A stretch of DNA of 64,000 nt from Ferroplasma acidarmanus Fer1. GTDB taxonomy: Archaea; Thermoplasmatota; Thermoplasmata; Thermoplasmatales; Thermoplasmataceae. The notes beneath the pieces were generated by a model. That model did not search any database and was not told the DNA's origin. It worked only from the letters and a program-made list of their open reading frames with translations. The position numbers were made by a program, and so were the translations under genes. The DNA is taken from assembly GCF_000152265.2 (NCBI RefSeq), contig NC_021592.1, positions 1,488,001 through 1,552,000 of the forward strand, given 5' to 3'. This document shows, piece by piece, positions 36,200 through 42,090 of the stretch. Every line of letters starts with the position of its first letter. The stretch's first letter is position 1.

Positions 36200-37521
36200 G
36201 GTTGTGTATGTAATTATGTGTAAATATAAACTCTCCTGTTACCAATGAATTTAATCATTAAATAACAGGAAAGTATACCTCTTTTGAACACAAGGAGGTA
36301 ATAAAATATGGAAAATACAGATATAAACATATCGGCTCTTGAGAATGTAGATATAGATAGAATATTAAAGGAAGCAATAAAAGAGAAAATAGAGAAATTA
36401 ATGGAAACAGAATTAAATGCATATCTAGAGGAAAATCCAGGAATAAAGAATGGAAAATATAAAAGAGATTTAAAGACAAAGTATGGTGAAATAAAACAGT
36501 TAAATATCCCCAGAGACAGGGATAGCAATTTCCATACAAAGGTAATAGAGCCCTATAACAGATCAATAGGAATAGAGGATCTTATAGTATCAATGTATTC
36601 CAATGGAATATCTACAAGGAGAATAGCAGGTATAATGGAGGATATTTTAGGAAATAAATATTCTAAATCTACTATATCAAGAATAACAGATTTAACCATA
36701 GAAGAGGTTTATAAGTTTGTTAACAGGCCTTTAGATAAACGGTATATAGCAATATTCCTGGATGGATTATTCTTCTATTTAAGAAGGGGAAATGTGGATA
36801 AAGAGCCAGTTATATTTGCTTTAGGAATTAAAGAAACTGGAGAATACGAAGTACTGGGATTCTATTTAACAGTTAAAGAATCACATAATAGTTATAAGGA
36901 AGTATTAGAAGACCTTTATAGCAGGGGATTAAAGGAGCCATTATTGATTGTAGCAGATGGAATAAAGAACTTAGATGAGGAAGTAATGGAAATATATCCC
37001 AGATCAGAATTCCAGCTATGTACAATACACTATACCAGGGGATTAAAATCCAATGTAAGGGAGAGAGATATTGAGGAAATATCTATAGACGCAAATAAAA
37101 TGTTTAAATGTGACAGTAAAGAAGAGGGTATAATAAAATTCAATGACTTTAAATATAAATGGGAGAGTAAGTATCCTAAGGTAATATACAATACTGAAAA
37201 GAATCTGGGAAAGCTATTAAGGTTCTATAATTATCCTTCCAGTATATGGAGATCATTGAAATCTACCAATGCTATAGAACGGTTAAATGGAGAGGTAAGG
37301 AGAAGGGTAAAAACAATATCATCATTCCCTGATGAGGATTCAGCAATGAAGGTATTCTATTATAAGTCAATAGAATACAATTCAAAGCATGCATTCAGGA
37401 AGATGAACGGATACTATAAATGCAAGGATGAAATAAAGGAAATGTTCAATAAGCGGTATCCTTTATAAATACACCTATATTAGATTATCGCATGTAATAT
37501 TTTATTTACAATTTAATGACC
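36200..37521 (+). mobile_element. IS256-family insertion sequence (right end uncertain)
   Basis: The left terminus starts GGTTGTGTATGTAATTATG at 36200, as shown by the matching relic near 17392. The right boundary is uncertain. One reading ends at 37521, where GGTCATTAAATT on the minus strand partly resembles the left end. The other ends at 38966: CACAAAATTATGGACACAATC there resembles the inverted left terminus, and both sides (36193-36199 and 38967-38973) carry ATTAATT as a possible target duplication. In the second reading the IS110 element sits inside the right end. Confidence 0.75.
36308..37468 (+). CDS. IS256/mutator-family DDE transposase
   Basis: This 386-residue transposase has Asp152 (FLDGLFF), Asp217 (VADGIKN) and Glu324 (TNAIERLNGEVRRR), the DDE triad of the IS256 family with the characteristic C-terminal motif around the Glu. 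A CxxxH pair (LCTIHYTRG) lies between the second Asp and the Glu, as is usual. A GGAGGT ribosome site is 7 bases before the ATG. The frame is complete, so the element may be active. Confidence 0.95.
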   Translation: MENTDINISALENVDIDRILKEAIKEKIEKLMETELNAYLEENPGIKNGKYKRDLKTKYGEIKQLNIPRDRDSNFHTKVIEPYNRSIGIEDLIVSMYSNGISTRRIAGIMEDILGNKYSKSTISRITDLTIEEVYKFVNRPLDKRYIAIFLDGLFFYLRRGNVDKEPVIFALGIKETGEYEVLGFYLTVKESHNSYKEVLEDLYSRGLKEPLLIVADGIKNLDEEVMEIYPRSEFQLCTIHYTRGLKSNVRERDIEEISIDANKMFKCDSKEEGIIKFNDFKYKWESKYPKVIYNTEKNLGKLLRFYNYPSSIWRSLKSTNAIERLNGEVRRRVKTISSFPDEDSAMKVFYYKSIEYNSKHAFRKMNGYYKCKDEIKEMFNKRYPL

Positions 37522-37522
37522 A

Positions 37523-38728
37523 TTATGCATACCTCTTATAATTCCCTACCATTTTCTCCTTATATGGTTTATGATTCTTCATAATGCTGTATATATGGAA
37601 TAATAATCTTTTTGAAACTGCTATATATGCCTGTACATTGGATTTCTTTTTTCCTATTTCCCTGTTGAATATATCATAGAATTCCTTATTTTTATTCATT
37701 ACAAGTGAAATTGCACTCTCATATACAGCATTGCTAAGAAATTTATTCCTTACATGTGTTATTCCCTTAGAATGTGTTTTACCTCCTGAACCCTCTATAT
37801 CAGGACATTTTCCTGCATATGACTGCAATTTCAATGCTGATTCGAACTGTTCTATATTTCCTATCTCAGATACTATTATTGCAGAATTTATAATCCCAAG
37901 GCCCCTGAGATTGGTGAGGTTATTAACATCCCCATTATTGCTGCTTCTACTTATAATCTCTTTTTCAATATTCTTTAAATTATTCATCTCATCCCTTAGC
38001 CTGGATATATTCATCCTTATTTTGAATTTATATGCATCATCTTTATCAGGGATTCCTATGCTGTTTTCAGCAGTTTCCATTAGCCTGTTTATATCTTCTA
38101 TTCTATAATGCCCCTTGCTTGCCTTTTTTATCGATTTTATAATATTATCAATACCTGCATTTAGAATACTGTACGGTGTTGCATATTCATAGAGTATTGC
38201 CATTCCTGCAGCAGAATTAATGCTGTACAAATCTGTAAATTCAGGGAATACAGCTGCAAGGTCACTATGTATATAATTCTTTATTGCAGTAATACTTTTA
38301 ACAACAATACTCCTTTCCCTTGAAATACTGGACAATGAAGACCTATTATGGCCTGTATATTCCCTGTATTTAGGATCATGCCATGGTGTAGCTGCTAAGA
38401 TATGTGCATCTTCACTGTCTGATTTAATAGTATTAAGGTTTATCATCTTTCTTAAATTCAATGTCTTCCTTGCATCTACCATGTATACAGTAAAATTATT
38501 ATTTTCCAGGAAATATTTCAATGGAACATGGTAATTCCCAGTAGGATTCATAAATATAAATTCAACCTTATCATTATTGCTCTTCTCTATTTTACTTATT
38601 TTATCTATTAAAAATTCAAAATCTTCTTTTATATTCCTGATCTTTCCATGCCATAGTTTATTTTCTTTTTCATCCTGTATTTCTGCATAATGCATTCTTT
38701 CATGCGTATCAATTCCTACGGATAACAT
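37523..38728 (-). CDS. IS110-family transposase (DEDD type) with Asn at the Glu position
   Basis: This 401-residue recombinase has the RuvC-like N-terminal domain (GIDTH with Asp7; KSDSEDAHILA with Asp104 and Asp107) and the C-terminal Tnp20 domain (GLGIINSAIIVSEIG, SYAGKCPD, EGSGGKTHSKGITHVRNKFL). The second acid of the DEDD set is normally in an E-P-T-G motif; here it is NPTGNYH with Asn61. The reading frame is otherwise intact. IS110 proteins work with a bridge RNA encoded in the noncoding part of the element, and such a region lies upstream of this gene. Confidence 0.93.
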   Translation of the reverse strand: MLSVGIDTHERMHYAEIQDEKENKLWHGKIRNIKEDFEFLIDKISKIEKSNNDKVEFIFMNPTGNYHVPLKYFLENNNFTVYMVDARKTLNLRKMINLNTIKSDSEDAHILAATPWHDPKYREYTGHNRSSLSSISRERSIVVKSITAIKNYIHSDLAAVFPEFTDLYSINSAAGMAILYEYATPYSILNAGIDNIIKSIKKASKGHYRIEDINRLMETAENSIGIPDKDDAYKFKIRMNISRLRDEMNNLKNIEKEIISRSSNNGDVNNLTNLRGLGIINSAIIVSEIGNIEQFESALKLQSYAGKCPDIEGSGGKTHSKGITHVRNKFLSNAVYESAISLVMNKNKEFYDIFNREIGKKKSNVQAYIAVSKRLLFHIYSIMKNHKPYKEKMVGNYKRYA

Positions 38729-38930
38729 TTATATTTCCTCCACCCATACATATACAGGGATTAATGATTCATTAAGCAGACACCTATTACTTTCCCATTG
38801 GAAAGAGAATGCCGATCAGCAATGATGAATCAGGGGAGATTCACAGAACAGTACGTAAGTACAGTATTTATATACTCCCCCTCCCTATACACATCTGGAT
38901 AACTCCAGATTGATTTTTAGTATAGGTTAT
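38729..38930 (-). ncRNA. Candidate bridge RNA of the IS110 element
   Basis: The 200 bases 5' of the transposase are noncoding and rich in inverted repeats. First (on the minus strand) GTATAGG/CCTATAC (38920-38926 and 38884-38890) encloses the hairpin ATCTGGA-TAAC-TCCAGAT (38893-38910). Then ATGAATCA and TGATTCAT (38825-38832 and 38765-38772) enclose the hairpin CTTTCC-CATT-GGAAAG (38790-38805), leaving a large two-sided internal loop. A 5' stem-loop followed by stem-loops with big internal loops is the architecture described for IS110 bridge RNAs. Assignment of target- and donor-binding guides is not possible without the empty site. Confidence 0.5.
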
Positions 38931-39060
38931 TTCTCATATAGCATTCACAAAATTATGGACACAATCATTAATTATTATCAATCTAAATTTTACGATCCAT
39001 TAGCAGAAATCCTACTGGCTTTATAGTAGATCGAAATTATATAAGGAAAACTTAATGTAT
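38931..39060. repeat. Remnant element ends between IS110 and IS200/IS605
   Basis: CACAAAATTATGGACACAATC (38946-38966) resembles the inverted left end of the IS256 element. CCATTAGCAGAAATCCTACTGGC (38997-39019) is an inverted copy of 42149-42171 (19 of 23 positions). Both suggest old element boundaries rather than genes. Confidence 0.45.
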
Positions 39061-39089: not shown

Positions 39090-39260
39090 CATTAGCTGAC
39101 ATACTCCCACAGCTAAAGCATGTGGGGTTCTAAGGTCGCCATCGTTCCTAACGTTGCCTCTTCAGGGATACCAGTGTTCCCTTTGTACGCATCTCTGTCT
39201 ACGTACAATTGATCTATGCCTTCCTCAAATACTGGACGCAATGCTATGTTGAACGAAGCA
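39090..39260 (-). ncRNA. Candidate omega RNA (reRNA) of TnpB
   Basis: In IS200/IS605 elements the guide RNA comes from the 3' end of tnpB and the right end of the element. Here that stretch ends in the stable hairpin CCCACA/TGTGGG with a short loop, overlapping the tnpB stop. The guide would be the sequence beyond the right end. The call rests on position and the hairpin only. Confidence 0.35.
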
Positions 39261-40162
39261 TTGGCATCAGCATGATCAACGTGCCCGCAATTGTTGCACT
39301 TAAATGATTTTCCTGAACGGTTGCCTATCTGTCCACATCTGCTACACTCTTTAGATGTATTATATGGATCGACATAGGCAACAGGTATTCCAGGTAGTCT
39401 GGCCTTATATTCTATCATAGTTTTAAGCTGATAGAATGACCAGCTATTCAGGGAATACCTGAAACTCTTGCTCGATTTTGCATTTCTTATTCCGTTTAAA
39501 TATTCGAGCTTTATTCCCATTCCATTATCCTTTGCTTCCTGCACTATCTTTCTTGCTACCTTATGGTTAATATCTTTGACTATTCTGCTTTCCCTGTTCT
39601 TTATTCTCTTAGCTTTCCTATTTTTTCCTTTTTTCTGCAGATTCTTCCTCGTCTTGCTATACTTCTTATGCACATGACCTGCTTCCTTTCCAAGCTTTAT
39701 TATTTTTCCCGTTTCTGGATTGCCAGCAACAGCAATATGCCCTGTTGTGTTCCTGTCCACTCCTAAGTATCCATTGGGTTCAATGAGATCATTATCAGGG
39801 ATATTTATAGATACATATGCAAATTTATTATCCAGTTCAATCTGGTTTATCTTATCAAAGTCATTCCTGAAATAATAGTTTAAAGTTAGCTTCAGGGGAG
39901 TTATGGTTATTGTTCTGTCCTCATTATTACATTTTATTCCCTGATGTGGCACTGTCAATTTTATTTTATGTACATCCTTTGCTTTTGAATTCCTGGAGTA
40001 TTTCCTTAATATCTGGTTTGAAATGGCTGATTTTAACCCGAACTGTTTTACATCCCTGGATATAATGGATTTTGTTTTAATGGCAAACTCTGCTATTTGC
40101 CTGGCTTTGTTTAATTCTTCAGAAAAATCTTTGCCATGTTTAATTTTATATGTTAATATCAT
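39113..40162 (-). CDS. tnpB: RNA-guided nuclease TnpB
   Basis: The ATG at 40162 overlaps the tnpA stop (ATGA) and gives 349 residues; an upstream start at 40246 would overlap tnpA too far. The RuvC residues are visible as LGVDRN (Asp), IKLEYLNG (Glu) and DHADANASFN (Asp), with the C4 zinc finger CSRCGQIGNRSG..CNNCG between. The coding frame is complete, so nuclease activity is plausible. It ends EPHML with the stop inside the right-end hairpin. Confidence 0.94.
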   Translation of the reverse strand: MILTYKIKHGKDFSEELNKARQIAEFAIKTKSIISRDVKQFGLKSAISNQILRKYSRNSKAKDVHKIKLTVPHQGIKCNNEDRTITITPLKLTLNYYFRNDFDKINQIELDNKFAYVSINIPDNDLIEPNGYLGVDRNTTGHIAVAGNPETGKIIKLGKEAGHVHKKYSKTRKNLQKKGKNRKAKRIKNRESRIVKDINHKVARKIVQEAKDNGMGIKLEYLNGIRNAKSSKSFRYSLNSWSFYQLKTMIEYKARLPGIPVAYVDPYNTSKECSRCGQIGNRSGKSFKCNNCGHVDHADANASFNIALRPVFEEGIDQLYVDRDAYKGNTGIPEEATLGTMATLEPHML

Positions 40163-40560
40163 ACTTTCTTCTGCTCCTCTATATATTTCCTGACTACTGA
40201 CTCGGATATATGCCCTACAGATTCTATATAATAGCTTCTTGTCCATAGTGTTGGCAGCTTGCGTTTCAATACTGGAAATTCCTGCCTCAGTATCCTGGAA
40301 GTATATCCTTTGAATTGCTGAATAATATAATGCGGGCTCAATACTGGATCTGCTTTTATAAATATGTGTATATGGTCCGGCATAACTTCCATTTCTTTAA
40401 TTTCTATCTTTAATTCCTGTGCCTTATAATTTAATAATTCCTTCAATCTTACATCTATGCCATTTACCAGTACATTTCTTCTGTATTTCGGGCACCAGAT
40501 AATATGGTATCCCAGATTATATACTGATTTATTGCTTCTTGTCCATCGTTCTGACACCAT
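40159..40560 (-). CDS. tnpA: IS200-type Y1 HUH transposase
   Basis: This 133-residue single-strand transposase has the HUH motif in VMPDHIHIFI and the catalytic Tyr near the C-terminus in VRKYIEEQK. It is full length. It precedes and overlaps tnpB. The IS4-type element is inserted 16 bases before its ATG, so the native promoter and left-end structure are separated from the gene and expression may now depend on the inserted element. Confidence 0.95.
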   Translation of the reverse strand: MVSERWTRSNKSVYNLGYHIIWCPKYRRNVLVNGIDVRLKELLNYKAQELKIEIKEMEVMPDHIHIFIKADPVLSPHYIIQQFKGYTSRILRQEFPVLKRKLPTLWTRSYYIESVGHISESVVRKYIEEQKKV

Positions 40561-40696
40561 TACAATACTATATAACCTTAACTATTAGTTTTTTACGTTA
40601 TAGATCATCTTTATTCTTTCTATCAATGTAATAGTGAGTTAGTGTTTTACGGGGTTTATTACCACATTAGATTAGAGAAATATTTATATACATATT

Positions 40697-40710
40697 ACGT
40701 ATATATACGT
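40697..40710. promoter_or_regulatory. 14-bp palindrome before the IS4-type transposase
   Basis: ACGTATATATACGT is a perfect palindrome ending 3 bases before the ATG at 40714. It overlaps the region expected for transcription start and could be an autoregulatory site or simply the promoter. Confidence 0.4.
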
Positions 40711-40713
40711 TAT

Positions 40714-42090
40714 ATGAATAATATGCCAGACTGGGTACTGGAACATAAGGGCAAAGGGATAGAAATAAGGAGATTCGGTGACAGGTATTATGCATATGAA
40801 TCGTCAAGCAGGTATGACAAGGATCTCAAAAGAGCAAGGAAAGTTACAGGCAAATACCTTGGTGTTGTAACACCTGCAGGGATAATAAAGAAGAGCGATG
40901 TTTCGGGCATAAGGGGAGACTATGAATATGGAAATATTGCATTACTGTATGGAATAGCAGGGAAGACAGTACTCCCGGTACTGAAGCAGGTATTTCCATA
41001 CATGTACGACAGGATAATAATATATGTTATCCTCAGGGATATACAGCCACTTCCAATGAAATCTTTAAGGTATTTATATGAGAAAACATACCTTTCAAGA
41101 ATGTATAGGGAATCCATGTCTCCCGGGTCTATTTCCGGAATGCTGTCATCACTGCCACAGGAAGGCATGGTAAATGCAATGGGGAAGCTCACGGAGAAGG
41201 GAGAATATGTTTTAATGGATTCAACAGCCATATTCTCCAGATCGGATAATATATCATTCCTGGAACCCGGCCATAATTCTAAGGAGATACACCTGCCACA
41301 GATCAATGTTATGATGTTATTCTCATCAACAAGGACTCTACCCACATTTATAAGGGTACTTCCAGGGTCAATAAGGGATGTGTCAGCTATGGCAAATACA
41401 ATAGACATGGCAGGTATTGAGAAATGCGTTATAGTTGCTGACAAGGGTTTCTTCTCCGCAGACAATATTAAAAAGCTAAAGAAGAGGCACCTGAGCTACA
41501 TAATACCATTGAGGAGGAATTCTTCCCTTGTACCTGATACTGATGATTTCCTTGGTGTATTCATGTACAATGGGAAACCAGTAAAGTACTGGAAGCCTGA
41601 GAATGGTGTTTACATGTTTGAGGACCCTGTTCTAAAATCAGAGGAAGAGAGGGACTATCTCATAAGGATTCATGACAATATAAGGCCTAAATCATCATAC
41701 TATGACCATTCTGGTGACTTTGGAAAGCTTTACCTCCTTTCCGATATCAATGATGAACCAGAAAGGATATACAGATTGTACAAAGATCGTGAATACGTTG
41801 AATACGCTTTTAATGTGTACAAGAACGATCTTGAGGCAGATAGATCATATATAAGGGACGACCACATGCTTTCAGCATACATGTTCCTTAATTTACTATC
41901 ACTGTACCTGCATTTCCAGGTACTTAACATGATAGATGGAAAATACAGTGTAAAGGATGTTCTCCTGATACTTTCAAGGATAAAAATATACAATACAGGG
42001 AAAACTGAGATGGTAAGTGAAATACCTAAGAAGGCAAAGGAGCTTATATCAAAATTAGGGATAGACCTGGACATATTACGTAAAAAATGA
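40714..42090 (+). CDS. IS4-superfamily DDE transposase
   Basis: The start at 40714 (MNNMPDWVLEHKGKG) gives 458 residues. The catalytic residues are Asp169 (VLMDSTAIF), Asp243 (VIVADKGFFS) and Glu363, the latter inside YKDREYVEYAFNVYK, which is the Y-(2)-R-(3)-E-(6)-K signature of the IS4 superfamily. The general layout resembles IS1634-type proteins. The frame is complete. An in-frame extension upstream to 40642 is not needed. Confidence 0.93.
   Translation: MNNMPDWVLEHKGKGIEIRRFGDRYYAYESSSRYDKDLKRARKVTGKYLGVVTPAGIIKKSDVSGIRGDYEYGNIALLYGIAGKTVLPVLKQVFPYMYDRIIIYVILRDIQPLPMKSLRYLYEKTYLSRMYRESMSPGSISGMLSSLPQEGMVNAMGKLTEKGEYVLMDSTAIFSRSDNISFLEPGHNSKEIHLPQINVMMLFSSTRTLPTFIRVLPGSIRDVSAMANTIDMAGIEKCVIVADKGFFSADNIKKLKKRHLSYIIPLRRNSSLVPDTDDFLGVFMYNGKPVKYWKPENGVYMFEDPVLKSEEERDYLIRIHDNIRPKSSYYDHSGDFGKLYLLSDINDEPERIYRLYKDREYVEYAFNVYKNDLEADRSYIRDDHMLSAYMFLNLLSLYLHFQVLNMIDGKYSVKDVLLILSRIKIYNTGKTEMVSEIPKKAKELISKLGIDLDILRKK

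Follow-up and report, generated by a model that had tools for sequence, protein, structure and literature searches.

A predicted bridge RNA upstream of an archaeal IS110-type transposase gene with its guides in the IS1111 order

A structured noncoding leader precedes an IS110-type transposase gene of the acidophilic archaeon Ferroplasma acidarmanus Fer1, which raises the question of whether it encodes a bridge RNA and how the guides of such an RNA would be arranged. The gene lies in the window, the stretch of 64,000 nucleotides that was analysed (NC_021592.1, positions 1,488,001 to 1,552,000), whose numbering is used below. Both loops of the IS621 RNA carry the left guide first, on their 5' side, and the right guide second, on their 3' side (Durrant 2024, PMC11208160; Hiraizumi 2024, PMC11208158), and the guide order of ISEc21 agrees with it (Siddiquee 2024, PMC11187229). 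In IS1111 elements, the order is opposite to that of IS621, and the RNA is usually downstream of the gene (Siddiquee 2024, PMC11187229). RNA position and guide order thus differ together between the published groups, IS110/IS621 and IS1111, suggesting a linkage of the two. The open-access literature that was searched contained no archaeal bridge RNA described in detail.

By its domains, the open reading frame at 37523-38728 is an IS110-family transposase (PF01548, DEDD_Tnp_IS110, E = 6e-23; PF02371, Transposase_20, E = 5e-13), as the initial annotation had read it. That annotation had placed the element at 37523-38930. An IS110 element is present there, but its true ends are at 37472 and 38947. 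Comparison with a second copy and with unoccupied target sites fixed these ends and the core dinucleotide, TG (Table 1). The second copy (G000:1337561-1339047) differed from the window copy at 12 of 1487 positions, its flanks were unrelated to those of the window copy, and the two sequences diverged beyond the element ends. That two such similar copies occupy different sites implies that the element moved recently. The window copy was inserted at the inner border of an IS256-like element end. Empty-site comparison showed that uninterrupted ends of this kind read ...TTTATAAATACAC/AGAATTC..., and three of them, together with one solo end, provide four intact copies of the target elsewhere in the same genome. 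The core common to filled and empty sites was GTG in the transposase direction, and relatives narrowed it to TG (TA in some elements). One TG is present at each element junction, seen on the plus strand as CA at 37472-37473 and 38946-38947. When the ends were set against the empty site, no target duplication was found beyond the short core, a trait of the IS110 family. The subterminal inverted repeats matched at 8 to 9 of 10 positions in related elements and at 7 of 10 in an interrupted one (L048), and 7 bases separate them in the predicted circle junction. Two relatives (L052 and L053) had unequal junction cores within one element, TG on the left and TA on the right, which could be a record of core mismatches left by strand exchange. 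Other insertion sequences are clustered nearby (36308-37468, 39113-40560, and 40642-42090), comprising the IS256-like host of the insertion, an IS200/IS605-type TnpA with TnpB, and a DDE transposase.

Table 1. Features of the element and its leader in window coordinates
Feature	Position	Strand	Basis
IS110-type element, complete	37472..38947	minus	Second copy and uninterrupted target sites
Right subterminal inverted repeat, TCTAATATAG	37475..37484	minus	Near reverse complement of left repeat
DEDD-type transposase/recombinase, 401 aa	37523..38728	minus	Pfam domains and motif alignment
N61 codon	38546-38548		Asn at Glu position, also in 10 relatives
GTATGGG, just upstream of ribosome-binding site	38743..38749	minus	Alternative partner of CCTATAC of the 5' stem-loop
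Predicted donor-binding loop	38765..38832	minus	Covariation
Putative left-donor guide AUAGGUG, 3' side of donor loop	38781..38787	minus	Identical to right end ATAGGTG
Putative right-donor guide GGCAUUC, 5' side of donor loop	38807..38813	minus	Pairs with element left end GAATGCT
Predicted target-binding loop, stem GGGGAG/CTCCCC and apical hairpin	38833..38880	minus	Covariation
Putative left-target guide UUCUGUG, 3' side of target loop	38842..38848	minus	7/7 bases matched to TTCTGTG
Putative right-target guide UAUAAAUAC, 5' side of target loop	38864..38872	minus	9/9 bases matched
5' stem-loop	38884..38926	minus	Outer helix covariation
Left subterminal inverted repeat, CTATATGAGA	38932..38941	minus	9/10 bases matched to right copy

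The leader precedes the gene and spans the 217 nucleotides that separate the left end from the start codon, and relatives showed the same upstream layout with leaders of 215 to 230 nucleotides. These relatives were gathered by protein searches of the order, phylum, and class, and most of them shared 44 to 54% identity (one truncated relative, 87%). Folded in the transposase direction, the leader reached -68.4 kcal/mol against -47.5 ± 4.4 kcal/mol for shuffled sequence (z = -4.8, 0 of 200), which bears out the structured leader noted in the initial annotation. All of the inverted-repeat arms quoted in the initial annotation were located in the leader: CCTATAC (38884-38890) and GTATAGG (38920-38926) enclosing ATCTGGA (38893-38899), TAAC, and TCCAGAT (38904-38910), which form the 5' stem-loop, and TGATTCAT (38765-38772) and ATGAATCA (38825-38832) enclosing CTTTCC (38790-38795), CATT, and GGAAAG (38800-38805), which form the predicted donor-binding loop. 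Both nested structures were therefore present, but the third and equally important stem-loop between them (38833-38880) had been missed. In an alignment of 16 leaders from related Thermoplasmata elements, RNAalifold predicted 34 pairs, 16 of which showed compensatory changes. The named structure of 39 pairs was paired in 91% of cells, with changes on both sides in 20 pairs. Cells changed on both sides numbered 66, compared with 22 after shuffling and 5 to 11 when partners were slid, with the reservation that the shuffle statistics, here and in the guide tests below, ignore the relatedness of the leaders. The stems expected to covary in homologous elements thus did so.

The outer helix of the 5' stem-loop was paired in 96% of cells, three of its pairs were changed on both sides, and swapping arms between elements never equaled the pairing of an element's own arms (0 of 5000). 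In the transposase sense, the CCTATAC at 38920-38926 has two exclusive partners, GTATAGG at 38884-38890 within the stem-loop and GTATGGG at 38743-38749. The second helix (alignment columns 22-28/217-223) was likewise paired in 96% of cells with three pairs changed on both sides, and it was closed in the predicted minimum-energy fold. Both pairings covary, which suggests that the leader could switch between forming the bridge RNA and allowing translation of the transposase. The same two covarying partners, one of them beside the ribosome-binding site, also speak for a reading of the leader as an RNA regulator of transposase translation, either an attenuator or a switch, with the guide matches secondary. 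We regard that explanation as very improbable, since, as described below, the loop bases covary with the flanks of each insertion, and such covariation has no place in a pure regulator. A regulatory role and a bridge-RNA role can coexist.

In the predicted target-binding loop, the stem was paired in 99% and the apical hairpin in 97% of cells, and the stem showed G-C, C-G, U-A, and A-U at the same positions across relatives. Both putative guides of this loop match the uninterrupted IS256-like end completely. The left-target guide is identical to TTCTGTG of that end, and the handshake bases AAU come directly after it. The 15-base target occurred four times in the genome and its reversed control not at all. 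Across the elements with known flanks, the 5' side of the loop scored a mean of 7.0 of 8 against its own right target and 5.3 of 8 against the right targets of the others, and the 3' side fitted its own left target (mean, 6.0) better than others (5.1); neither difference was reached in 20,000 shuffles. In a fixed-register test by position, left-target positions -3 to -7 gave P values from 5e-5 to 0.03. The result for the left guide was repeated at eight held-out loci, which were found by the RNA covariance model only and not used to set the register (exact P = 1.5e-4). Wrong-strand controls were at or near chance (539 and 18,370 of 20,000). As an exception, the intact element L032 fitted its own right target poorly (5.5 of 8). 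Some flanks of the relatives came from draft genomes and may contain errors.

In the predicted donor-binding loop, the apical hairpin was paired in 97% of cells and the base of the stem covaried, and the inner stem pairs were not conserved. Position 2 of the left end, which may be A, T, or G, paired with the right-donor guide in 15 of 16 elements (0 of 20,000 shuffles), and the left-end variants AAT, TTT, ATT, AGT, and AGC were met by matching guide variants. The left-donor guide matched over 7 bases in each of the 12 elements that have a right end, apart from the last core base in three of them, and it is invariant among elements, so that the covariation in this loop is that of the right-donor guide. 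The complementarity expected of the internal loops was thus found on both counts, as loop bases matched the insertion target and the element ends and varied together with them. The ends, core, stems, guides, and covariation of the guides can all be seen in the sequence. Every test open to sequence analysis identifies the leader as a bridge RNA, and the proposal to this effect in the initial annotation was supported.

The standard IS110 layout that had been assumed along with this proposal was contradicted. As read from these matches, both loops carry the top-strand guide first, on the 5' side, and the bottom-strand guide on the 3' side, in reverse of the IS621 order. A standard bridge RNA of the IS110/IS621 type, in which the left guide precedes the right guide in each loop, would share the upstream leader and the 5' stem-loop followed by two large loops. 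When the elements were read in this order, the own-versus-other comparison did not rise above chance (2281 and 6489 of 20,000 shuffles), whereas the reversed order gave 0 of 20,000 in the same test. In addition, the genome contains a second IS110 lineage (L014, L015, and L016) with an upstream leader and clear similarity to ISCro4 and IS621 (1e-17 or better). Read in the same way, this internal control showed the usual order by eye, with 3'-side matches of 11/11 and 10/10 and a 5'-side match of 10/11 in each of two elements. The usual order in a second lineage of the same genome speaks against an orientation error. The own-versus-other and held-out tests together rule out the IS621 order unless the RNA strand is wrong, and we consider a standard layout extremely improbable. 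An Enterococcus element with empty sites, a CT core, and the usual order by eye was not counted, because its loops were not clear enough.

We consider it highly probable that the leader encodes a bridge RNA guiding recombination at the TG core, with its guides in the IS1111 order and the RNA upstream of the gene. The putative RNA resembles the IS621 bridge RNA in its position upstream on the gene strand, its 5' stem-loop with target-binding and donor-binding loops, its split guides on both strands that meet at a dinucleotide core, and its handshake bases, which follow the 3'-side guide and fit the partner DNA. It differs in the exchanged guide sides of both loops and in the core, TG (or TA) rather than CT, and the element differs from IS621 in its clear subterminal inverted repeats and its 401-amino-acid recombinase with Asn at the Glu position. 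The ISEc21 seekRNA, of IS110 type, also derives from an upstream noncoding region and has a short linear target within another insertion sequence, but its bottom-strand match comes first, the reverse of the element here (PMC11187229). With the IS1111-type seekRNAs of ISEc11, ISPa11, and ISKpn4 (PMC11187229), the element shares the top-strand match preceding the bottom-strand match, the subterminal inverted repeats, and the asymmetric ends. It differs from them in that its RNA is upstream of the gene and its transposase is longer and lacks GL-P. Judged by these matches, the element misses one defining trait of each published group, the guide order of IS110/IS621 and the RNA position of IS1111. 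What is new here, set against the published IS621, ISEc21, and IS1111 orders, is the predicted guide order.

The transposases bear on whether the element might still be a true IS1111-group member with an upstream RNA, a rare exception like ISMtsp17. The top-then-bottom guide order and the subterminal inverted repeats of about 10 bp point that way, and a tree joining the clade to the IS1111 side was not rejected (p-AU 0.38). IS1111-group elements are characterized by subterminal inverted repeats of 11 to 13 bp with 7- and 3-bp extensions, transposases of 330 to 350 amino acids, and a GL-P motif. The clade transposases, in contrast, were 399 to 433 amino acids long with a C-terminal G[KR]-P motif, the repeats in the circle junction were 7 rather than 10 bases apart, and the clade fell outside the strongly supported group (100/100) of the IS1111-type reference IS5075. 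We therefore regard membership in the IS1111 group as possible but doubtful. The catalytic positions of the window protein are D7, N61, D104, D107, and S314, with the Ser of the S-G motif kept. Asn replaces the catalytic Glu of DEDD in all 11 clade transposases aligned, in the motif [MI]NPTGN[YF]H, so that the full D-E-D-D set of the IS110 family was absent from the clade and activity is not certain. Solved structures nearest to the window protein matched it weakly in sequence. We see about an even chance that the RNA-guided recombinases of Thermoplasmata include a branch of their own, intermediate between the IS110 and IS1111 groups, in which an upstream bridge RNA with exchanged guides goes together with a TG/TA core and a D-N-D-D center. 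If this is true, the order of the guides, the position of the RNA, and the catalytic acids can vary independently. Because the clade uncouples RNA position from guide order, the determinant of guide order becomes testable. The elements also offer sets of guides, targets, and donors from acid-loving archaea, and thus recombinases whose hosts differ from those tested to date.

On the preferred reading of an upstream bridge RNA with exchanged guides, transcription, transposase binding, the circle, and recombination are inferred parts of the mechanism. The excision circle would join the right and left ends as ...ATATAGG-TG-AATGCTATATG..., and the bridge RNA would be made from the circle junction or from inside the element. 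At the junction, a sequence resembling a TATA box comes to lie some 27 bases before AACCTATAC, and our guess is that it could serve as an archaeal promoter. The RNA would bind the transposase and pair, through its first large loop, with a chromosomal target; its second loop would pair with the excised circle where RE meets LE. In each loop, the top strand to the right of the core would be read by the 5' side and the bottom strand to the left of the core by the 3' side. In the window copy, the guides would specify TTCTG-TG-TATTTATA at the inner border of the IS256-like end, with TTCTGTGTATTTATA as the expected insertion site. The recombinase would then exchange strands at TG, with the donor in the second loop and the target in the first, after which AAU, past the 3'-side target guide, would match the incoming left end like the handshake bases of IS621. 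Turning target and donor by 180 degrees would restore the IS621 pairing geometry and leave the logic of recombination unchanged; the difference from IS621 would probably lie in how the element ends and the flanks are assigned to the two sides of the RNA.

No bridge RNA family was matched near the element in an Rfam search, and the viral contigs searched contained no relative. A search of genome contigs with one protein gave a single relative. A covariance model built from the two loops detected the leader RNA in 25 of the 117 genomes of the order over which it was run. Several loci carried the leader with little or no transposase gene. In five of them (L091, L092, L097, L098, and L100), the leader was followed by just the first 30 to 40 or so transposase codons, and L091, L092, and L097 apparently share one orthologous site. 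A decayed solo leader in the same genome (L013, 1805-2017; G000:57324-57530), 73 to 74% identical to that of the window, had no transposase gene. On the reverse complement of L103 (1443-1850), the leader RNA and a right end made up an element of about 407 bp that had no transposase gene and may be a non-autonomous derivative with a bridge RNA of its own.
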